NCBI RefSeq assembly: GCF_004323595.1
Contig: NZ_AP019373.1
Coordinates: 124,001 to 188,000 of the forward strand
DNA from: Sulfuricystis thermophila
GTDB taxonomy: Bacteria > Pseudomonadota > Gammaproteobacteria > Burkholderiales > Rhodocyclaceae
Length of the DNA: 64,000 nucleotides
Direction of reading: 5' to 3'
The number at the start of each line of letters is the position of its first letter. The stretch's first letter is position 1. The position numbers and the translations under genes are program-made. Under the pieces are notes generated by a model, which made no database searches, was not told the DNA's origin, and was given only the letters and a program-made list of their open reading frames with translations. Below are positions 31,376 to 45,944 of this stretch, piece by piece.

Positions 31376-32308
31376 ATGACCAAACAAAAAGGCGCCGCCA
31401 AGACCGCGCGTATCCCGATCAAGATCGTGCCGGTCGCCGAGCCGTTGAAAAAGCCCGACTGGATCCGCGTCAAGGCCGGCAATTCCGCCACGCGCTTCGG
31501 CGAGGTGAAGTCGATCCTGCGCAGCCACGGCCTGCACACGGTCTGTGAGGAGGCCACCTGCCCGAACATCGGCGAATGCTTCGGCCATGGCACGGCCACC
31601 TTCATGATCCTGGGCGATCTGTGCACACGCCGCTGCCCGTTCTGCGACGTCGGCCATGGCGTGCCGTTGCCGCCCGACCCCGAGGAGTCGGCCAAGCTCG
31701 CCACTACCGTCGCGGCGATGAAGCTGAAATACGTCGTCATCACCAGCGTCGACCGTGACGATCTGCGCGATGGCGGCGCGGGGCATTTCGCCGCCTGCAT
31801 CCATGCGATCCGTGCGGCCACACCGACGACGAAGATCGAGATCCTCGTGCCGGATTTTCGTGGCCGACTGGAGATCGCGCTCGACATCCTGGCGCAGGAG
31901 CCGCCCGACGTGATGAATCACAATCTCGAAACCGTGCCACGGCTTTACAAGCAGGCCCGTCCCGGCGCCGACTATGCGCACTCGTTGAAGCTCTTGCAGG
32001 CATTCAAGCATCGCCAGCCGCACATTCCGACCAAGTCCGGGCTGATGGTGGGCCTGGGCGAGACCGACGAGGAGATCCTCGCGGTGATGCGCGACTTACG
32101 CGCCCACGACGTCGAGATGCTGACCATCGGCCAATATCTCGCGCCATCGAATCATCATCTGCCGGTCGTGCGTTATGTGCATCCGGACGTCTTCAAGAGG
32201 TATGCGGACGAGGCGAAGAAGATGGGCTTCACCCATGCTGCCTGTGCGCCGCTGGTGCGCTCGAGCTATCACGCCGATCTGCAGGCGCACGACGCTGGCG
32301 TGGCCTAG
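31376..32308 (+). CDS. lipA: Lipoyl synthase
   Basis: LipA inserts two sulfurs into octanoyl groups using two 4Fe-4S clusters. The 310 residues have the auxiliary-cluster cysteines C57, C62 and C68 ([14 protein letters not shown]), the radical SAM cysteines C83, C87 and C90 ([13 protein letters not shown]) and the C-terminal RSSYHAD motif with the cluster-binding serine. ATG 31376 lies seven bases after the MITE-like element; the start codon itself looks intact. It overlaps the convergent glycosyltransferase gene by four bases. Confidence 0.97.
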
Positions 32309-33495
32309 ATCTCGAAAGTCGGCGCTGGCAAGACGGCATCCGCATCGTCGTAACGGCGCTCGACCGCATCGATGAGCATCGTTTCGTAACGCTCGGCGAT
32401 GCTGTCCCAGCTCAGGTGGCGCACGCTGACGGCACAGGCGGCGCGGTCGATACCGCCGCGTGAAAGCCGCCGCACCGCTTCGCGGCTGACGCTGATGAAT
32501 GCGGCTGAATCGCCGGGTGCCACACGCCAGCCGTTGCGGCCCTCTGCGATCAACTCGCCGGCAGCGGCATGGTCGAAGGCGACCACCGGCAGGCCGCTCG
32601 CCAGTGCCTCGCTGACGACGTTGCCAAAGGTCTCGGTCAGGCTGGGAAAGAGAAACAGGTCGGCGCTGGCGTAATGTGTGGCAAGGTCTTCGCCGGTGCG
32701 CATGCCGCGGAACAGGACATCCGGGTAGCGGCGCGCCAACGCGAGTGCGGCCGGGCCATCGCCGACGCAGACCATGCGGGCGTCCGGCCATTCGTGACGG
32801 ATCGCCGCGAAGGCCTTGAATGCCAGCGCCAGATTCTTTTCCGGGGCGAGGCGGCTGACGACCAGACATACCGGCGCATCCGGACGTGCTCCCCATTCCA
32901 GGCGCAGCAGCGGTGAGCGGCGTGCCGGCGAAAACAACGCGGTATCCACCCCGCGCGAGAGCACCCGCACGTTGCAAAATCCCGCCTGGCCGAGCGCCAT
33001 GGCGAGACTGGCCGTCGGCACCAGGGTCGCGGCCGTGCGATTGTGGAACCAGCGTAAGTAAGATTCGATGCCGGGCTTGAGCCAGCCGATGCCGTAATGC
33101 CGGCTGTAACTGTGGAAGTTGGTGTGGAAGCTGGAAATCGTCGGGATGCCGAGCCGTCGCGCCGCCGAGAGCGCCGAATGGCCGAGCGGCCCTTCGGTGG
33201 CGACATGCACGATGTCCGGCATGGCCGTGCGCCACAGCGAGATGAGGCGCCGCATCGCCGGCAGGCCGAAACGCAGCTTGGGATAGAGCGGGATCGGCAG
33301 TCCCGGCACCAGCAGCCCGCCATCCAGCAAAGTTCCACTCAGCTCATTTCTTTGGTGTGGCCGCACGATGCTCACGGCATGGCCGCGGCTGCGCAGGCCC
33401 TCGGCCAGACGCCCAAGCGTCATCGCCACGCCATTGACTTCGGGTGGGTAGGTTTCGGTGACCAGCGCGAGCTTGAGGGGAATCGATACCGTCAC
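32305..33495 (-). CDS. GT4-family glycosyltransferase, candidate glycolipid synthase (third gene of the plcP operon)
   Basis: A 396-residue GT-B glycosyltransferase. The acceptor half starts [26 protein letters not shown] and the nucleotide-sugar half has [15 protein letters not shown] and [28 protein letters not shown]. This pattern is close to SQD2/PimB-like enzymes that glycosylate lipids. GTG 33495 overlaps the stop of the plcP-like gene in a GTGA, so the two are likely co-translated. A role in adding sugar to diacylglycerol released by PlcP is inference from context. The last residues [10 protein letters not shown] are encoded by a copy of the 26-bp repeat. Confidence 0.85.
32314..32338 (+). 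repeat. 26-bp dispersed repeat, copy at a glycosyltransferase 3' end
   Basis: This copy reads GTCGGCGCTGGCAAGACGGC with a GAAA leader. On the minus strand it encodes the last eight or so residues of the glycosyltransferase (VLPAPTF), just before the stop. Confidence 0.75.
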
Positions 33496-34259
33496 GCCAC
33501 CGCCCGTAACGGCACCACCTGCGTGCCGGCGTGGCGCCATTCGATCAGTTCGAGTGCGCCATTCAAATGCTCGACGATCGCGGTGCAGCTATCGACCCAA
33601 TCGCCGCAATTGACATACACCACGCCGTCCTTCTCGCGCAGCGCGGCACTGTGGATGTGGCCGCAGACGATGCCGTCGAGACCGCGCTCGCGCACCGTGC
33701 GAATGACGGCATCCTCGTAATCACAGATGAAGGAGACCGCCCGCTTGACGCGCCGTTTGGCATAACCCGCCAGCGACCAGTAGCCCGAGATGCGCAGGCT
33801 GCGACGCAACCAGGAAAGCCAGGCGTTCATGCGCACCAGCGCGTTGTAGCCGATGTCGCCGAGCAGGGCGAGCCAGCGATGATGGCGCGTGACCTGGTCG
33901 AACTCGTCGCCGTGCAGGAGCAGCAACCGCCGGCCGTCGGCGGTTTCATGCACGTGTTCCGCCACCAGCTGGATGTCGCCGAAACGCGCGCCGACATATT
34001 CGCGCAAGGCTTCATCGTGATTACCGGGAATCAGCATCACCTTCTCGCCGTGCCGGGCACGGCGCAGCACCTTTTGCACCACGGTGTTCTGCGCAGCGGT
34101 CCAATGGATGCCGCGCTTCATCGCCCAGAAATCGACGATGTCGCCGAGCAGGAACAGATGCTCGGCCTCGTAGTGACGCAAAAAAGCGAGCAGACTGTCG
34201 GCCTGGCAGCCGCGCGTGCCGAGGTGGATGTCCGAGAGGAAGATACTGCGCACTCGCAT
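33492..34259 (-). CDS. plcP: PlcP-like metallophosphoesterase (phospholipase C, LpxH superfamily)
   Basis: A 255-residue calcineurin-like phosphoesterase. All metal motifs are present: LSDIHLGTRGCQAD, LLGDIVDFW, IPGNHDEALREY, LLLLHGDEFD and CGHIHSAAL. General annotation would call it UDP-2,3-diacylglucosamine diphosphatase. However, the N-terminal block DIHLGTRGCQAD and the NCGDWVDSCTAIVEH segment agree with what I recall of PlcP, the PhoB-controlled phospholipase C of Sinorhizobium that turns phospholipids into diacylglycerol. Its position between two glycosyltransferases and opposite olsB supports this. Start 34259 fits MRVRSIFLSDIHLG. Assignment as PlcP rather than LpxH is likely, not certain. 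Confidence 0.78.
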   Translation of the reverse strand: MRVRSIFLSDIHLGTRGCQADSLLAFLRHYEAEHLFLLGDIVDFWAMKRGIHWTAAQNTVVQKVLRRARHGEKVMLIPGNHDEALREYVGARFGDIQLVAEHVHETADGRRLLLLHGDEFDQVTRHHRWLALLGDIGYNALVRMNAWLSWLRRSLRISGYWSLAGYAKRRVKRAVSFICDYEDAVIRTVRERGLDGIVCGHIHSAALREKDGVVYVNCGDWVDSCTAIVEHLNGALELIEWRHAGTQVVPLRAVA

Positions 34260-34391
34260 GTCCGGCAGCTTGCCGGGTGGATGCGACGCGAAGATGAAAA
34301 ATTCATGACGGAATGGTGACAATGATTTGGGGAAACGCTGAAGAAATCGACGTGAGCGGCCGGAGGGCAAGGCGCACGGAGCGCAGCAGAC

Positions 34392-35576
34392 TTATTCAGT
34401 GTTTCCTTGGTCTGTGACTCTGCGGCTTTCCAGCACCGTGCGATAAACCTCGGCCAGTCGACGGGCGCAGGCCGTGGTGGTCCATTCGTTGGCGAAGGTG
34501 CGTGCCGCGCGCCCCATCGCTTCGAGACGTTGCGGATCGTCGATCAACGCGGCCAGCGTCTCGCCGAAGGCAGGCGCCTCCTGCGGCGCCGGCAGCGCGC
34601 CGCGGCGCGGCTCGACGATCTCGCGCGTGCCCAGCGCGGAAAACGCCAGTACCGGCAGTCCGGCCGCCATGGCTTCGAGCAACACCAGACCCTGCGTCTC
34701 GGTGCGCGAGGCGAACACGAAGACGTCTGCCGCTGCGTAGCAGGCCGGCAATTCGCTGCGTCGGTCGAGATAGCCGACGAAGCGCACGTTCTGTGCGATG
34801 CCCAAGGCCGCCGCATGACGCTGCAAGGCCGGCAAGGCGGGACCTTCGCCGGCAATGACCAGGATCAGCTCCGGCAGCCATTTGAGCGCATGCGGCATGG
34901 CATCGAGCAGAAAGCCGATGTTCTTTTCATGAGCCGTGCGCCCGACGAACAAGGCCACCGGCGCTGAGGCAGGTATGGCGAAGCGGGTGCGAAAGTCGGC
35001 GTTGCCAGTACGGCACCCGGTGCGGAAATGCTCGACGGGGATACCGGTCGGCACGCGATGAAGCGGTGCGGTCACACCATAGCCGCGCAGCGTCTCATGC
35101 ATCGCCTGGGACGGGACGACCACGGCATCGAGCGCATTGCACTGGCCACGCGCGAGGCGGCGCGCGAAGGCGCGCAGCGCACCTTGCGGCAATGCCGGCA
35201 GGTAGTTGTGGAGGTATTCCTCGAAATGGGTGTGATAGGTGGCGATGCAGGGCAGGCCATGTCTGCGCGCATGAGACAGCCCGGCGTAGTGGGCAGCGAA
35301 GGGCGTCTGGACGTGCACCAGGTCGACCGCGGGTGCCCGGTTCAGCGTCTGGCGCAGGCGCCAGGGGTGCATCAGCCGGTCTTCCGGATCGAACGGCACC
35401 CGATGCGCCGGCACGCGATAAATGTGTTCGTCATCAGGGTGGGGGTTGGGGTACGCCGGTGCGATGAGACTGATCGTGATGCCTTCCGCCGCGAGCGCCT
35501 GCCGGAAAGACTCGATCGACGTCGACACGCCATTGATGCGGGGAAAAAACACGTCGGAGACCATCAGCACACGCAT
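34392..35576 (-). CDS. GT4-family glycosyltransferase (first gene of the plcP operon)
   Basis: A 394-residue GT-B enzyme starting MRVLMVSDVFFPRINGVSTSIESFRQAL, with TYHTHFEEYLHNYLP in the acceptor half. The donor half has VGRTAHEKNIGFLLDAM and VFVFASRTETQGLVLLEAMAAGLPVLAF. This resembles diglucosyl/monoglycosyl diacylglycerol synthases and PimB-type enzymes. It is the first gene of the minus-strand group with the plcP-like gene and the second GT4, separated from the former by 132 bp. It is divergent from olsB, so the Pho-box-like array may serve both directions. Sugar and lipid acceptor are unknown. Confidence 0.85.
   Translation of the reverse strand: MRVLMVSDVFFPRINGVSTSIESFRQALAAEGITISLIAPAYPNPHPDDEHIYRVPAHRVPFDPEDRLMHPWRLRQTLNRAPAVDLVHVQTPFAAHYAGLSHARRHGLPCIATYHTHFEEYLHNYLPALPQGALRAFARRLARGQCNALDAVVVPSQAMHETLRGYGVTAPLHRVPTGIPVEHFRTGCRTGNADFRTRFAIPASAPVALFVGRTAHEKNIGFLLDAMPHALKWLPELILVIAGEGPALPALQRHAAALGIAQNVRFVGYLDRRSELPACYAAADVFVFASRTETQGLVLLEAMAAGLPVLAFSALGTREIVEPRRGALPAPQEAPAFGETLAALIDDPQRLEAMGRAARTFANEWTTTACARRLAEVYRTVLESRRVTDQGNTE
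34991..35017 (+). repeat. 26-bp dispersed repeat, degenerate copy in a GT4 gene
   Basis: GAAAGTCGGCG and CGGCACC ends match the family, with about five differences in the middle. On the minus strand it encodes GCRTGNADF in a loop between the two GT lobes. This is the weakest copy listed. Confidence 0.5.
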
Positions 35577-35723: not shown

Positions 35724-36494
35724 ATGGAGACCCGGAACGAAAAGATCGAACACGCAGACCTGGAACGGCCTGCGCGCGCCAAACTGCACGTCGGCTTGGC
35801 AACCACCCCATCCGAAATCCTCGCCGCGCAAAAACTGCGCTGGCGTGTCTTCGCCGAGGAACTCGGCGCCACGCTGCCGACGCGCACGCCGGGCGTGGAC
35901 CAGGACTTCTATGATGCCTGGTGCGAGCATCTGATCGTGCGCGACGAAGCCAACGGACGCATCGTCGGCACCTATCGCATCCTCTCGCCACTGGCGGCAC
36001 GCCGTGTCGGCAGCTACTACTCGGAAAACGAATTCGATCTGACGCGCCTGGCGCATCTGCGACCGCGCATCGTCGAAGTCGGCCGCTCCTGCATCGATCC
36101 GGAATACCGCACCGGCGCGACGATCGCCTTGCTGTGGTCGGGCCTGGCGCGCTACATGATGGACAATGGTTACGAATATCTGATCGGCTGTGCCAGCATC
36201 GGCATGCAAGACGGCGGCCATAACGCGGTGGGCATCTACCATGCGCTCGCCGCGCACGAAGCGCCGCCCGAGTATCGCGTCTTTCCCCGCCACCCCTTGC
36301 CGCTCGATCGCATCTGGGCTTCGCCGCACCCGGAAGTGCCGCCGTTGATCAAAGGCTATCTGCGTGCCGGTGCCTGGGTTTGCGGCGAGCCGGCCTGGGA
36401 CCCGGATTTCAACACTGCCGATTTGTTGCTGTTGCTGCCGATGAGTCGTGTCAATGCGCGTTATGCCCGCCACTTCGTCGAGCGGCGGGTGTGA
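35724..36494 (+). CDS. olsB: OlsB-type ornithine N-acyltransferase (GNAT fold)
   Basis: OlsB transfers a 3-hydroxyacyl chain from acyl carrier protein to ornithine, giving lyso-ornithine lipid. The 256 residues show the family pattern: LRWRVFAEELGA, DQDFYDAWCEHLIVRD, GRIVGTYRIL, SYYSENEFDL, IVEVGRSCIDPEYR and EYLIGCASIGM. AAGGAGACC precedes the ATG. An acyltransferase gene overlaps its stop, the usual olsBA order. In several bacteria ornithine lipids rise under phosphate limitation, which fits the upstream Pho-box-like repeats. A related function with another amino-acid acceptor is possible. Confidence 0.85.
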   Translation: METRNEKIEHADLERPARAKLHVGLATTPSEILAAQKLRWRVFAEELGATLPTRTPGVDQDFYDAWCEHLIVRDEANGRIVGTYRILSPLAARRVGSYYSENEFDLTRLAHLRPRIVEVGRSCIDPEYRTGATIALLWSGLARYMMDNGYEYLIGCASIGMQDGGHNAVGIYHALAAHEAPPEYRVFPRHPLPLDRIWASPHPEVPPLIKGYLRAGAWVCGEPAWDPDFNTADLLLLLPMSRVNARYARHFVERRV

Positions 36495-37308
36495 AAGCCA
36501 TGCTCCGCGAGCTACGCACGGCATTTCGCATCACTCGCGTCGGGCTCCATCTCGGCTGGGGTGCGGCGACGGTCGCCGTGGTTTATCCGTGGCTCGATGA
36601 TCGCTGGCGGCGCGCGTTGAAACGGCGTTGGTCGCGTCAGCTGTTGGAAATGCTCGGCGTCAAACTCGGCGCTGGCGACACGGCACCACCGCCTGGGCTA
36701 ATCGTCTGCAACCACATCTCCTGGCTCGACATCTTCGTCATCAATGCCATCACGCCGGCTGCCTTCGTGGCAAAGGCGGAGGTGAAAGACTGGCCGCTGA
36801 TCGGCTGGCTGTGCGCACGCACCGAAACACTCTTTCTCGAGCGTGGCTCGCGCACCTCGGCGCGTCGCACGATCGAGGCCATGGTCGTACGCCTGAAGCG
36901 TGGCATTCACGTCGCCGTGTTTCCCGAAGGCACGACGACGGCTGGCGAGCACGTGCTCCGTTTCATGCCGCGCTGTTCCAGGCGGCGATCGAGGCACAAA
37001 CCCAAGTCGTACCCCTTGCGCTGCGCTATGCCGATCAGCGCGGCAACCCGAGCCGGGCAGCCGCCTACGTCGGCGACGTCACGCTGTGGCAATGTCTGTG
37101 CGCGATCGCGCGGGCAAACGGTTTGGTGGCGGAGTTGCGTGTGCTGCACGCACTCGAACCGCACGACGGTGTTCGCAGTGAATTGGCGCGACAATGTCGC
37201 ACAAGAATTCTCATGCATCTCGAAGGTCGTCGCTTCCTGCCGGTTCTGCCAGAGGAGGCCGCAGCGGTGGGCGAAGTGCCCGAGCTCGAAGTGCAACCCG
37301 TCCCATAG
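36491..37308 (+). pseudogene. olsA: OlsA-like lyso-ornithine lipid O-acyltransferase, frameshifted
   Basis: A PlsC-family acyltransferase that would complete ornithine lipid after OlsB. Frame one (GTG 36491 or ATG 36500 onward) encodes the N-terminal anchor, the HX4D motif CNHISWLD and VFPEGTTTAG. Conserved sequence then jumps to another frame near 36962-36966, continuing HAALFQAAIEAQTQVVPLALRY to the stop at 37308. Inserting one C in the GTTTCATG stretch restores a 272-residue protein. Without it, frame one ends at 37327 with an unrelated tail. It may be a real inactivation, a phase-variable site or a sequence error. A copy of the 26-bp repeat lies within. Confidence 0.82.
36661..36687 (+). 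repeat. 26-bp dispersed repeat, copy in the olsA-like gene
   Basis: The plus strand reads AAACTCGGCGCTGGCG then ACACGGCACC, three or four changes from consensus. It encodes LGAGDTAPPP, in the variable segment just before the catalytic HX4D motif. Confidence 0.65.
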
Positions 37309-37576: not shown

Positions 37577-39481
37577 ATGAGTTTCGCCACCCGAACGATC
37601 GTCGCCGCCTTGGCAGGCGCCTTTGCCGCGGTCACGCCCCTGAGCGTCGTTGCCGCACCCCCCAAACCCGTCAGTGTCGAATTCACCCCTACCCCCGCCC
37701 CGCAGACGGACGATGAAATGATCGCCACCTACACCCGCTCGCTGGCCAAGGTGACCTTTTCGAACGGCAAGACGCGCGACTATCCGCTTTCCTACGTCAC
37801 GCTGTTCAAGAACACCGATCCCGTCGCGCGCGTCAATGGCAAGACGTATCCGGCCGGGCAGATTTTCGATGCCCACATGAACCCGGTCATGGAGCCGCAA
37901 GGCGATCCGGCGCTTGCCGAAACGGCCGATGCCAACACCCTGATCACGCTGGGTGGCAAACTGTTCCTCGTCACCCACTGGGAGTACGACGATGTGCTCG
38001 CCACCGGCGAAGAGGCGAGAAAGTCGAAATCCTGGTATGCGCGCATGCCGATGACGATGAGCCTGTCCGAAATCGTCCAGGACAAGAAAAGCGGTCGCTT
38101 GAAGCTCAAGCGCCAGCAGCCGATCGACTTCTCCGCCGTGCAGGGCGGCTGGATCTTCTGCAATGCATCGCTGACGCCGTGGAATACGCATCTGGCCGGC
38201 GAGGAAGACTACGACCTCTACTTCGTGCCGGGCGAAAAGGAGTTCAAGAAAACCCAGGCGGGCCTCAAGCCGATGAGCGAGGTCTATTTCCGCGGCGAGA
38301 AACAAGCCAATCCCTACCACTACGGCTATCACGTCGAAGTCGAGGTGAACAAGGACGGCACTTACCAGGTCGTCAAGCATTACGAAATGGGCCGCGGCAC
38401 CTGGGAGATGGCGCAATTCGCCAACGATGGCCGCACCGCGTTTTATGGTGATGATGGCAACTATGCGGGACTCTTCATGTTCGTCGGCCACAAGGCGAAT
38501 GACCCGGCCGCCGGCGGCACGCTATATGCCGCGAAATGGCTGCAAACCTCGCCGGACGGCAGCGATGGTGGCACGGCCGACCTGCAATGGGTGAAACTCG
38601 GCAGCGCGACTCATGACGAGATCAAGGCGCTGATCGATGCCGGCATCACGATCAACGACATTTTCGAACTGTCGCTGAGTGAAAAACCGGACTTCGTGCC
38701 CACCCGCGCCGGTTCCGCCGAGACGATCTGGCTGAAGCTGAAGCCCGGCATGGAAAAGGCCGCGGCCTTCCTCGAAACACGCCGTTACGCGGCTTATCTC
38801 GGCGCGACCACCGAATTCACCAAAGGCGAAGGTGTGGCGATCGATCACGCCGGCAAGAAGCTCTACTATGCGATGAGCTACATCCAGGGGCCGATGAAGG
38901 CCAACGACGGCGGCCCGGTCGATCACATCCGCCTCAAAGAAAACCAGGCCGGCGCAACCTATACCCTCGATCTCGCCGGTGGCCAGAAAGATACCGAGGG
39001 TAATCTTATCGACTCCGCATACGTGCCGGTGCGCGCCTATGTCGAGCCGGCACTCTTGGGTCGCCCGATCGCCGCCGATGCGCTCGGCAACACTGCCGAT
39101 CCGGAAGCCATCGCCAACCCGGACAACCTGTTCTATGTCGAGAAGATGCGTACGCTGTTCATCGGTGAGGACTCGGGCACACACGTCAACAACTTCGTCT
39201 GGGCTTACAACGTCGATACCAAGAAGCTCTCGCGCATCTTGAGCGTGCCTGCCGGTGCCGAGGCCACGGGACTCAAAGTCGTCGAGAATCTCAACGGCCA
39301 TGCCTACATCCTCTCCAACGACCAGCACCAGGGGAGTGACTGGGCGAAGGGCATGAGCCAGGCGCTCAAGGATCGTTTGATGCAACGTGCCGGCGATAAA
39401 TGGGGACGCAATCGCCACGGCGTGCCGTTGTGGCATCTCGAATCGCGTGTCGGCTATATCGGCGGGCTACCGGGTTTTTGA
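37577..39481 (+). CDS. phoX: PhoX-family (DUF839) alkaline phosphatase
   Basis: A 634-residue exported protein related to PhoX, the calcium- and iron-dependent phosphatase induced by phosphate starvation. A Sec-type signal peptide (about 1-26, ending VVAAPP) is seen; there is no twin-arginine motif, unlike many PhoX proteins. FCNASLTPWNTHLAGEEDYD corresponds to the Cys/Glu-containing metal segment of PhoX. Later blocks are WEMAQFANDGRTAFYGDD, ATTEFTKGEGVAIDH and MRTLFIGEDSGTHVNNFVWAYN. A GGAGAG motif precedes the ATG. It lies tail to tail with phoR. The DUF839 assignment is firm, phosphatase activity is inferred. Confidence 0.82.
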   Translation: MSFATRTIVAALAGAFAAVTPLSVVAAPPKPVSVEFTPTPAPQTDDEMIATYTRSLAKVTFSNGKTRDYPLSYVTLFKNTDPVARVNGKTYPAGQIFDAHMNPVMEPQGDPALAETADANTLITLGGKLFLVTHWEYDDVLATGEEARKSKSWYARMPMTMSLSEIVQDKKSGRLKLKRQQPIDFSAVQGGWIFCNASLTPWNTHLAGEEDYDLYFVPGEKEFKKTQAGLKPMSEVYFRGEKQANPYHYGYHVEVEVNKDGTYQVVKHYEMGRGTWEMAQFANDGRTAFYGDDGNYAGLFMFVGHKANDPAAGGTLYAAKWLQTSPDGSDGGTADLQWVKLGSATHDEIKALIDAGITINDIFELSLSEKPDFVPTRAGSAETIWLKLKPGMEKAAAFLETRRYAAYLGATTEFTKGEGVAIDHAGKKLYYAMSYIQGPMKANDGGPVDHIRLKENQAGATYTLDLAGGQKDTEGNLIDSAYVPVRAYVEPALLGRPIAADALGNTADPEAIANPDNLFYVEKMRTLFIGEDSGTHVNNFVWAYNVDTKKLSRILSVPAGAEATGLKVVENLNGHAYILSNDQHQGSDWAKGMSQALKDRLMQRAGDKWGRNRHGVPLWHLESRVGYIGGLPGF

Positions 39482-39494
39482 GTGTTGCGTGAAT

Positions 39495-40742
39495 TCAAAC
39501 ACTGCGCTCCACAGGAAAGCGGCAGGTGAACGTGCTACCGCGACCGGGCACCGAGGTGATCTCGAGTCTGCCGCCATGGCGCGCCAGCACATGCTTGACG
39601 ATCGCCAAACCCAGCCCGGTGCCACCCGAAGCGGTTGCGCGGCCCTTGTCGACGCGGTAGAAGCGCTCGGTGAGGCGCGGGATGTGTTCGGCGGCGATGC
39701 CGATGCCGGTATCGGTGACGGAGAAGGTGGGCTGGCCATCGACGATGCGCCAGGCCAGCGTGATCCTGCCGCCGGCCGGGGTATAGCGTACGGCGTTGAA
39801 GATGAGATTGCCGAAGGCGCTGCGCAGCTCATCCGCGCTGCCGCGCAGCTTGGCGTCCGACAGCTCGGCGGTCTCGATCGTATGCTGCCCCGCCGAAAGG
39901 GCGAGTGCCTCGGTACGCAGCGCTGCCACGAGAGCGGCGATATCGACGGTTTCATCGCTGGGCGGCAGCTCGCTGTTTTCCAGACGCGACAGGGTCAGCA
40001 GGTCGGCGATGAGGCGCTTCATGCGTTCGGCCTGTTCGGCCATCAGGCGGATGAAGGCGCGCGCCGCCTCGCCCGTCGGCGGCGTGGCGGTGTCGAACTG
40101 TTCGAGAAAACCCGAGATCACGGTCAGTGGCGTGCGCAGTTCGTGCGAGACGTTGGCGATGAAATCCCGGCGGATGGTTTCGGTACGCACCTGTTCGGTG
40201 ACATCGGTGGAGACGAGCAGCGTTTCCCCTTCGGAAAAGGGGATGAGTATGACCGACAACACGCGCTCGCCATCGTTGCCGGCGACGCGCAGCTGGGCGG
40301 ATTGCCGGCTGGGATGGGCACGATAGGCGGCGGCCAGCTGCTGGAATTCACTTTGCCGGATCAGTTGGCTGACCAGGGTGCCGGGATCGCGCGCCGCATC
40401 GAGGGCGAAGTGTCGGCACGCCGCATCGTTCAACCAAACGATGCGCAATTGCCCGTCGAGCAGCATGACGCCGGCTGGCAGGGCCTGGATGGTGAGGCGG
40501 AAGCGTTCGAGTGCATTGCCGAGCTCGAACTGCTGGCGGCGCTCTTGCTTGCGCAGAGCCTGCAAGCGGGAAAAGATTTCGCGCCAGGCCCCGCTGCCAT
40601 CCGGAATGGTTTGCAGCTCGGGGGCGGCGAGCCAATCGCGCAGCGCGTTGCGCTGGCGGATCTGGCCGGCGAGAGCAGCGCCCAGGGCGATGACCAGCGC
40701 AGCCAGCAGCAGGAGTGGCCAGAGGGTGGTTTCACCGCTCAT
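39495..40742 (-). CDS. phoR: Phosphate-regulon sensor kinase PhoR
   Basis: PhoR phosphorylates PhoB when the Pst system signals low phosphate. The 415 residues have one N-terminal membrane segment (about 8-28), a PAS region (about 85-190) and a HisKA domain with FIANVSHELRTPLTVISGF. The ATPase domain has NLIFNAVRYTPAGG, VTDTGIGIA and GTGLGLAIVKHVL. There is no large periplasmic domain, as usual for PhoR. The start overlaps phoB by four bases. It is the last gene of pstSCAB-phoU-phoB-phoR. Confidence 0.95.
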   Translation of the reverse strand: MSGETTLWPLLLLAALVIALGAALAGQIRQRNALRDWLAAPELQTIPDGSGAWREIFSRLQALRKQERRQQFELGNALERFRLTIQALPAGVMLLDGQLRIVWLNDAACRHFALDAARDPGTLVSQLIRQSEFQQLAAAYRAHPSRQSAQLRVAGNDGERVLSVILIPFSEGETLLVSTDVTEQVRTETIRRDFIANVSHELRTPLTVISGFLEQFDTATPPTGEAARAFIRLMAEQAERMKRLIADLLTLSRLENSELPPSDETVDIAALVAALRTEALALSAGQHTIETAELSDAKLRGSADELRSAFGNLIFNAVRYTPAGGRITLAWRIVDGQPTFSVTDTGIGIAAEHIPRLTERFYRVDKGRATASGGTGLGLAIVKHVLARHGGRLEITSVPGRGSTFTCRFPVERSV

Positions 40743-41434
40743 CGGGACGGGCTGGCGAGCTTATAGCCGATGCCGCGTACCGTCTCGATCAGTTGTTCAC
40801 CCACCGGACCGAGTCCGGCGCGCAGACGGCGGATATAGACATCGATGGTGCGGTCTTCGAGAAAACGATGATCGCCGCGCAGCGCGTTGAGCAGTTGGTC
40901 GCGGGTGAGCGCCCGGTTCGGGTGGTTCATCAGATATTGCAACAGCTCGAATTCCGTCGGCCCGAGCGTAACGGGCTGACCGTGGCAGGTGACGGTGCGT
41001 GAGCCCGGATCGAGCCGTACCGGTCCGATCTCCACCGGGTCGCCAGCCAGATGCGGGGCACGGCGGCGCAGCACGGCGCGGATACGCGCGATCAGTTCCT
41101 TGGGTGAAAACGGCTTGCTGACGTAGTCGTCGGCGCCGATCTCCAGGCCCTGAATGCGATCGGCCTCTTCGCCGCGCGCCGTGACCATGATGATCGGCAG
41201 CTCGCGCGTGCGTGCTTCACTGCGCAAGCGCTTTGCCAACACGCTGCCCGACATGCCGGGCAGCATCAGGTCGAGCAACACCAGCGCCGGCAGGCGCTGC
41301 CGGATTTCCTCCAGCGCCGCCTCGGCGGAAGGGACGATCACGACCTCGAAGGCTGCCTGCTCCAGCGAGTAGCGCAGCAGCTCCTGGATCGCGGCCTCAT
41401 CCTCGACGACGAGAATGCGCGCCCGCCCGCTCAT
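40739..41434 (-). CDS. phoB: Phosphate-regulon response regulator PhoB
   Basis: PhoB is an OmpR-type activator that binds Pho boxes. The 231 residues have a receiver domain with the phospho-acceptor Asp in VLLDLMLPGMSG and the Lys in YVSKPFSPKEL. The winged-helix domain has TEFELLQYLMNHPNRALTRDQLL and RTIDVYIRRLRAGL. Start 41434 overlaps the phoU stop. Likely targets in this window are the sites at 45927-45944 and perhaps 35633-35665. Confidence 0.96.
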   Translation of the reverse strand: MSGRARILVVEDEAAIQELLRYSLEQAAFEVVIVPSAEAALEEIRQRLPALVLLDLMLPGMSGSVLAKRLRSEARTRELPIIMVTARGEEADRIQGLEIGADDYVSKPFSPKELIARIRAVLRRRAPHLAGDPVEIGPVRLDPGSRTVTCHGQPVTLGPTEFELLQYLMNHPNRALTRDQLLNALRGDHRFLEDRTIDVYIRRLRAGLGPVGEQLIETVRGIGYKLASPSR

Positions 41435-42138
41435 TGTGCGGCAGCCTCCTGCTCCAGCTCGTCGAGCTTCAAGTGACGCACGTCGCGGCCCTTGACGATG
41501 AAGATTACATCGCGGGCGATGTTCTTGGCATGATCGCCGACGCGCTCCAGCGACTTGACGCTGAAGATGATGTCGAGCGCCGACGAGATTGTGCGCGGGT
41601 CTTCCATCATGTAGGTGACCAGCTCGCGCGTGATGGAGCGGAAATGCTGGTCGATCTCCTTGTCCCGGCGGACGATATCGAGGGCGGTATTGGCATCCAT
41701 GCGCACGAAGGCATCGAGCACGTCGTGGAGCATCGTGGCGCACTGTTCACCCATGTGGCGTACCGCCATGATCTGCGGTGTGGTGACGGCCAGTTCGCGC
41801 TCCATGATCTTGCGCGCCGCCTTGGCGATCTTCTTGGCTTCGTCGCCGATGCGTTCGAGGTCGGTGACGGTCTTGCTGACCATCATGATCATGCGTAGAT
41901 CGACGGCGGTCGGCTGGCGCCGGGCGATGACGTGGGTGCAGGCAGTGTCGATCTCGATTTCGAATTTGTCGACTTCGGCATCGCGCGCGATGACGCGGTC
42001 GATGAGATCAGTATCGCCTTCAACGAGCGCCCGGGTGGCATCCCTGACCTGTTCCTCGACCAGACCACCCATGCGCATCAGCTGGGCGCGCAGGTCGTCG
42101 AGTTCGGAGTCGAATTGTTTGTAAAGGTGTTCGCTCAT
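41431..42138 (-). CDS. phoU: Phosphate transport regulator PhoU
   Basis: PhoU links the Pst transporter to PhoR and keeps the regulon off when phosphate is plentiful. The 235 residues start HLYKQFDSELDDLRAQLMRMGGLVEEQ and contain two three-helix PhoU repeats with the metal-binding motifs ERIGDEAKKIAK and ERVGDHAKNIARDVIF. It lies nine bases downstream of pstB and overlaps phoB by four. Confidence 0.96.
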   Translation of the reverse strand: MSEHLYKQFDSELDDLRAQLMRMGGLVEEQVRDATRALVEGDTDLIDRVIARDAEVDKFEIEIDTACTHVIARRQPTAVDLRMIMMVSKTVTDLERIGDEAKKIAKAARKIMERELAVTTPQIMAVRHMGEQCATMLHDVLDAFVRMDANTALDIVRRDKEIDQHFRSITRELVTYMMEDPRTISSALDIIFSVKSLERVGDHAKNIARDVIFIVKGRDVRHLKLDELEQEAAAQ

Positions 42139-45926: not shown

Positions 45927-45944
45927 GTGACAGCCCCATGACAG
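45927..45944 (-). promoter_or_regulatory. Pho box upstream of pstS
   Basis: On the minus strand this reads CTGTCATGGGGCTGTCAC, two CTGTCA units 11 bp apart, an almost perfect match to the PhoB consensus. It ends 53 bp before the pstS ATG. PhoB activation of the pst-pho operon is expected. Confidence 0.9.

Follow-up and report, generated by a model that had tools for sequence, protein, structure and literature searches.

A metallophosphoesterase gene in a 64,000-nucleotide stretch of the Sulfuricystis thermophila genome (here, the window) raises the question of whether it encodes the UDP-2,3-diacylglucosamine diphosphatase LpxH or PlcP, the enzyme with which a phosphate-starved bacterium strips phosphate from its own membrane lipids while neighbouring sugar-adding enzymes rebuild sugar lipids. 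Here, we conclude that the gene is very probably plcP (LpxH2 in older papers) and that its product would be an LpxH-fold, manganese-type metallophosphoesterase with phospholipase C action on the phospholipids of its own cell when phosphate is scarce. We infer this action on the membrane from the Pho-regulon setting of the gene and from an identity of approximately 50% to two PlcPs with published mutant evidence, compared here through copies from the same species.

The plcP reading frame lies on the minus strand and extends exactly from 34259 to 33492 (Table 1). The plus-strand reading of this interval meets a stop at codon 6, and an antisense frame of 262 aa lies opposite plcP at 33531-34319. 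The product has a calcineurin-like phosphoesterase domain, and a Pfam search returned Metallophos families only. The sequence-only reading had drawn attention to two motifs; both are present in the frame, i.e. DIHLGTRGCQAD from residue 10 and WVDSCTAIVEH from residue 221, and, in the consensus forms SDxHLGTRGCQA and GDWVESCTALVEH, both are family signatures across 43 aligned PlcP-type proteins. By alignment, the metal-ligand set of LpxH, of which PMC5016852 enumerates seven members, maps to D10, H12, D40, N80, H116, H201, and H203 of the window PlcP, and all seven are invariant in the 43 aligned PlcPs. PlcP is described as manganese dependent in PMC8231724.

Table 1. Features of the plcP region and the evidence on which their names are based
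Feature	Position	Strand	Description	Evidence
GT_A	32305..33540	minus	GT4 glycosyltransferase close to P. aeruginosa Agt2 (PA0842, glucuronosyl-DAG synthase)	identity, tree; frame overlaps plcP 3' end
plcP	33492..34259	minus	PlcP-type metallophosphoesterase, 255 aa, ATG start at 34259	tree, motifs, LpxH models well below cut-off
Tandem Pho-box-like element	34294..34322	minus	TTGTCAC-N4-CCGTCAT-N4-TTTTCAT	three heptamers, 11-bp spacing, in 132-bp gap upstream of plcP
GT_B	34392..35576	minus	second GT4 glycosyltransferase, TETQG motif	GT4 domain, tree, co-occurrence
olsB-like	35724..36494	plus, divergent from plcP cluster	N-acyltransferase (ornithine lipid)	NF052555, 168.3 bits, under cut-off 320
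olsA-like	36500..37308	plus	O-acyltransferase	NF052553, 106.3 bits, under cut-off 300; frame broken near 36960
phoX-like	37577..39481	plus	alkaline phosphatase	PF05787, 72.7 bits, cut-off 24
phoR	39495..40742	minus	phosphate sensor kinase	TIGR02966, 382.9 bits, over cut-off
phoB	40739..41434	minus	response regulator	TIGR02154, 286.4 bits, just under cut-off 296.2; adjoins phoR and phoU
phoU	41431..42138	minus		TIGR02135, 238.8 bits, over cut-off
Strong Pho box	45927..45944	minus	13/14, upstream of pstS-like gene (name read from translation)	window's strongest; internal yardstick for motif

That the protein is instead a second functional LpxH-type diphosphatase for lipid A is suggested by its fold class and metal ligands, which are those of LpxH, as well as by its best NCBIfam matches, which are LpxH models. 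However, its scores are far under both curated cut-offs (50.6 bits on TIGR01854, cut-off 190.35; 50.9 bits on the second LpxH model, cut-off 134), and the genome, a single 2.737-Mb contig rated 100% complete, already has a proper LpxH. This separate LpxH (G000:C1:1078429-1079094) scores 265.6 bits on TIGR01854, over the cut-off; the two genes adjoining it read, from their translations, as peptidyl-prolyl isomerases, and E. coli lpxH adjoins ppiB. A further match to the LpxH model, at G000:C1:2684140, has only 11.3 bits and was taken as chance. The search for another lpxH or lpxI that had been proposed together with the PlcP assignment thus recovered an LpxH and, for LpxI, no PF06230 match anywhere in the genome. 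The same division of scores is seen in 61 relatives, of which 58 have LpxH over the cut-off, one has it at 152.6 bits, and two are without a match, while their second, PlcP-type matches to the LpxH model reach at most 60.1 bits.

Over 238-240 residues, the window PlcP is 48.8% identical to the PlcP of Sinorhizobium meliloti and 51.3% identical to that of Pseudomonas aeruginosa; identity to LpxH is 22.0% for the E. coli protein and 26.4% for the genome's own. The metallophosphoesterase fold with a helical insertion is common to the window PlcP and LpxH. In a maximum-likelihood tree of 64 rows, which covers PlcP-type and LpxH-type proteins (LpxI has an unrelated fold), one branch with 100/100 support separates 46 PlcP-type from 18 LpxH-type rows, and the window PlcP falls on the PlcP side together with the S. 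meliloti and P. aeruginosa proteins, within a 19-row clade supported at 99/100; two rows (L080 and L072) have long branches and an uncertain placement. As the sequence-only reading had argued, the protein therefore lies in the PlcP branch and outside that of LpxH. The same division is found in block 3 of the five-block motif, which reads GNHDE at residues 79-83 of the window PlcP: GNH is present in 46/46 PlcP-type rows vs GNR in 18/18 LpxH rows, and this Arg is described as particular to LpxH in PMC3087551 and PMC5016852. Moreover, P. aeruginosa lpxH2 is reported not to compensate for the loss of E. coli lpxH (PMC3087551), and PMC5016852 argues for a different substrate of LpxH2. Based on the LpxH scores, the separate LpxH, the lack of an LpxI match in the genome, the tree, and the block 3 His, we rejected the LpxH and LpxI readings; a second lipid A diphosphatase is, in our estimate, extremely improbable.

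Two records supplied the references for PlcP. In S. meliloti strain Ak57 (L076), the plcP homologue has genes for a LuxR-type regulator and for an acyl-homoserine-lactone synthase nearby, which we take to be the sinR/sinI neighbourhood of S. meliloti plcP. In P. aeruginosa strain HPA0698 (L077), a glycosyltransferase gene lies directly downstream of plcP, the same arrangement as that given for PA3219-PA3218 in PMC8528852. The annotated genes have 270 codons (813 bp with the stop) in P. aeruginosa and 281 (846 bp) in S. meliloti; because these lengths agree with the 270 and 281 given for LpxH2 of the two species in PMC3087551, LpxH2 and PlcP are two names for the same proteins. The window PlcP has in common with these references the level of identity (49-51%), the motifs, the GNH block, the side of the tree, and the Pho-regulon setting, whereas it forms part of a sub-clade of its own and has Agt2-like and GT_B genes as neighbours.

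The product name UDP-2,3-diacylglucosamine diphosphatase, which the sequence-only reading had predicted for automatic annotation, stands under the match in 24/31 plasmid records, the remaining 7/31 being without annotation there. Both PlcP references, from S. meliloti and P. aeruginosa, are among these 24 records. This is a clear misannotation: the NCBIfam matches contain no PlcP model, and plcP copies from species where PlcP was studied bear the LpxH name. Metabolic models that use this name would enter two lipid A enzymes and overlook the recycling of phospholipids. As to the records themselves, the S. meliloti one (CP090106.1, 3.72 Mb) is titled pSymB, has the size of a chromosome, and is probably mislabelled. 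Similarly, L077, with plcP-agt1, and L117, with an agt2-type gene, are P. aeruginosa records filed as plasmids that, judged from gene order, are presumably chromosomal segments.

An AlphaFold2 model of the window PlcP has a mean pLDDT of 82.2, with a pLDDT near 50 in the poorly modelled helical insertion, which is the part expected to set lipid specificity. The 18 best solved structures for this model are LpxH, all of them loose fits (TM 0.51-0.56, rmsd 10-14), and the solved-structure search with the window PlcP returned LpxH chains and three weak unrelated matches. The closest solved structures, too, would thus fit a second LpxH. The poorly modelled insertion, the separate 19-row clade, and the partners unlike canonical Agt would be compatible with a PlcP-fold enzyme that acts on a different lipid, for instance phosphatidic acid or a phosphorylated intermediate of glycolipid synthesis, and that serves, together with GT_A and GT_B, a glycolipid pathway particular to the lineage. 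However, the window PlcP is closer to each of the two PlcP references than these are to one another (46.3% identity; 46% according to PMC8528852), its catalytic residues are invariant, and its context is that of the Pho regulon, so that we regard a different substrate as very unlikely and favor a phospholipase C acting on membrane phospholipids.

On the minus strand, the order of genes is GT_B, a 132-bp gap, plcP, and GT_A overlapping plcP. Facing the opposite direction are the olsB-like, olsA-like, and phoX-like genes, followed by phoR, phoB, and phoU on the minus strand and, past phoU, by genes that from their translations read as pstB, pstA, pstC, and pstS. The sister genome (L036) has an intact olsA that matches at 92% in its N-terminal part. 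The broken frame in the window reflects either recent pseudogene formation or an error of sequencing, and a real break may mean that the strain stops at lyso-ornithine lipid. The phoX-like gene lies between olsA and phoR in the window and has no match in the sister locus at E 1e-8. For betaine lipids as an alternative diacylglycerol sink, PF11899 was without a match in the window's genome.

The glycosyltransferase partners that had been put forward in favor of PlcP are present, as two GT4 genes flank plcP on the same strand, but neither is the canonical Agt, the most frequent neighbour of plcP. Agt was first demonstrated in Agrobacterium. The plcP-agt operon of SAR11, Erythrobacter, and Methylosinus resembles the window in having a GT4 gene beside plcP and a proposed glycosylation of diacylglycerol; however, canonical Agt has FPSxTDTFG, whereas the window has FPSLTETFG in GT_A and FASRTETQG in GT_B. 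PMC8231724 gives FPSxTDTFG as the motif of the Agt group; it is not absolute, because two canonical-Agt-group genes beside plcP (L154 and L179) read TETFG instead of TDTFG.

GT_A probably starts nearer 33490-33500, from where homology begins. It is 50.8% identical to a plcR-linked P. aeruginosa gene (L117) vs 35.1% to Agt1. This best match adjoins plcR and a gene for a phosphocholine-specific phospholipase C, and by gene order (PA0842-PA0844) we take it to be PA0842. An agt2 (PA0842) mutant is reported to lose glucuronosyl-diacylglycerol (PMC8528852). In 11 Pseudomonadaceae genomes picked because they carry PlcP, plcP and the best GT_A match (46-51%) are apart in 11/11, and a second match (30-40%) adjoins plcP in 8/11. 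In a tree of 80 glycosyltransferases, a quick search with SH-aLRT support only in which rows were labelled by best BLAST hit, short, weak, and identical rows were left out, and canonical Agt was held to at most 24 rows, GT_A/Agt2, GT_B, and canonical Agt are separate (98, 100, and 98), with GT_A grouping with the Agt2-type genes of Pseudomonas (98). By motif, identity, and tree, we ruled out GT_A as the usual Agt, and canonical Agt had no match at E 1e-60 in the window's genome.

GT_B is likely a diacylglycerol or glycolipid glycosyltransferase. By sequence, its closest PDB chain is a phosphatidylinositol monomannoside mannosyltransferase, presumably PimB', and that of GT_A is PimA, both of them lipid-acceptor enzymes. 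Two NDP-sugar dehydrogenases over their cut-off in the genome fit a supply of UDP-glucuronate and are not specific for it. As in the lipid renovation pathway of P. aeruginosa (PlcP-Agt1-Agt2), the window combines one PlcP with two GT4 enzymes, of which GT_A is Agt2-like; however, Pseudomonas agt2 is apart from plcP while the window GT_A overlaps it, and in place of an Agt1-type gene the window cluster has GT_B.

The tandem Pho-box-like element upstream of plcP has 16/21 matches to the consensus, a score attained in 7/3000 simulations of the gap, and the sister genome has 17/21 upstream of its plcP (L036). The element is off consensus, with 11/14 per heptamer pair. In a scan that took 34 of 45 plcP loci, just 13/34 reached at least 11/14 within 250 bp upstream; a sister-genus locus (L037) has 9/14, and the references from S. 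meliloti and P. aeruginosa have 10/14, a score reached or exceeded by 15% of background pieces. In six of the low-scoring loci (L043, L044, L048, L049, L050, and L052), plcP follows a same-strand glycosyltransferase gene. Candidate Pho boxes before olsB/GT_B and before phoX, at best 9/14, were unconvincing. When at most 3 mismatches were allowed, a scan of the whole window found 6 matches vs 2.59 expected; because as many were found in 7/100 shuffles, the argument for the element rests on its placement and spacing and not on the bare count.

Among 118 distinct plcP loci (119 less L119, a duplicate of L049), 37 are at least 60% identical to the window PlcP. Of these 37, 26 have GT_A or GT_B in the locus (16 of them both), 11 show no glycosyltransferase of the three kinds, and 0 have canonical Agt. 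Of the remaining 81 loci, 58 have canonical Agt, 2 have GT_A, and 21 have no such gene. The cultivable relative Aromatoleum toluclasticum, in locus L137, has a 65% PlcP together with a GT_A-type gene. These absences are soft, because the lengths of the flanks vary. OlsB lies in the locus in 9/37 of the former group vs 3/81 of the latter. In the window's family, PlcP is present in 82/121 genomes, i.e. 84 matches less two with 30-31% identity, of which G083 was dropped as that genome's LpxH and G093 on score alone. At E 1e-70 or 1e-60, these 82 genomes contain GT_A in 71, GT_B in 70, both in 62, canonical Agt in 3, and none in 2, such that 80/82 have at least one of the three. This strong co-occurrence of PlcP, GT_A, and GT_B singles out GT_B as an uncharacterised enzyme group. 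Nine of the 121 genomes (G029, G040, G041, G043, G051, G063, G091, G094, and G097) have GT_A and/or GT_B without a PlcP match, suggesting that these enzymes may also draw diacylglycerol from another source. At the phylum level, 149/398 genomes have a match at E 1e-20 or better.

We infer the regulation, substrate, and lipid products of the cluster as follows. PhoR-PhoB, encoded 5-7 kb away, would switch plcP on via the tandem Pho-box-like element; PlcP, by homology, would remove the phosphate headgroup of membrane phospholipids, leaving diacylglycerol; GT_A would put glucuronic acid on diacylglycerol; and GT_B would attach a further sugar (most likely glucose) either to diacylglycerol itself or to the glycolipid already formed. 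olsB would open an ornithine-lipid route to a second phosphorus-free lipid, though olsA looks broken here.

plcP beside non-Agt glycosyltransferases has been described for marine bacteria (neighbourhood types 3 and 5; PMC4796936) and for type Ia methanotrophs (PMC9239053), and the latter source also reports plcP transcripts in Methylotenera. In having such partners, these systems resemble the window. PlcP with non-Agt partners is thus known, also outside the alphaproteobacteria, and because such partners are already in print, the window cluster is best seen as an ordinary known pathway with mild variation: the gene content points to the known PlcP family in phosphate-starvation lipid remodelling, modestly varied by the pair of an Agt2-type enzyme and GT_B. 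Among the literature matches listed, we found no description of the GT_A and GT_B pair with plcP. We tentatively raise the possibility that the Agt2-type enzyme, together with GT_B (a PimB-like enzyme of the TETQG GT4 group), took the place of canonical Agt next to PlcP in the window's lineage. Under phosphate starvation, the cells would then produce a set of glycolipids, perhaps including a two-sugar or a new one-sugar lipid, so far undescribed for PlcP users.

The P. distasonis record (L080; Parabacteroides distasonis, NZ_OY725790, Bacteroidota) has a 38% identical PlcP-type gene on a very long tree branch, with a glycosyltransferase gene directly after it. Plasmid pTs417 of Candidatus Thiodictyon syntrophicum (L079) carries plcP and a divergent GT_B-like gene (49.7%) beside an IS1-family transposase, a setting that suggests a capacity of the plcP/GT_B pair for horizontal movement.
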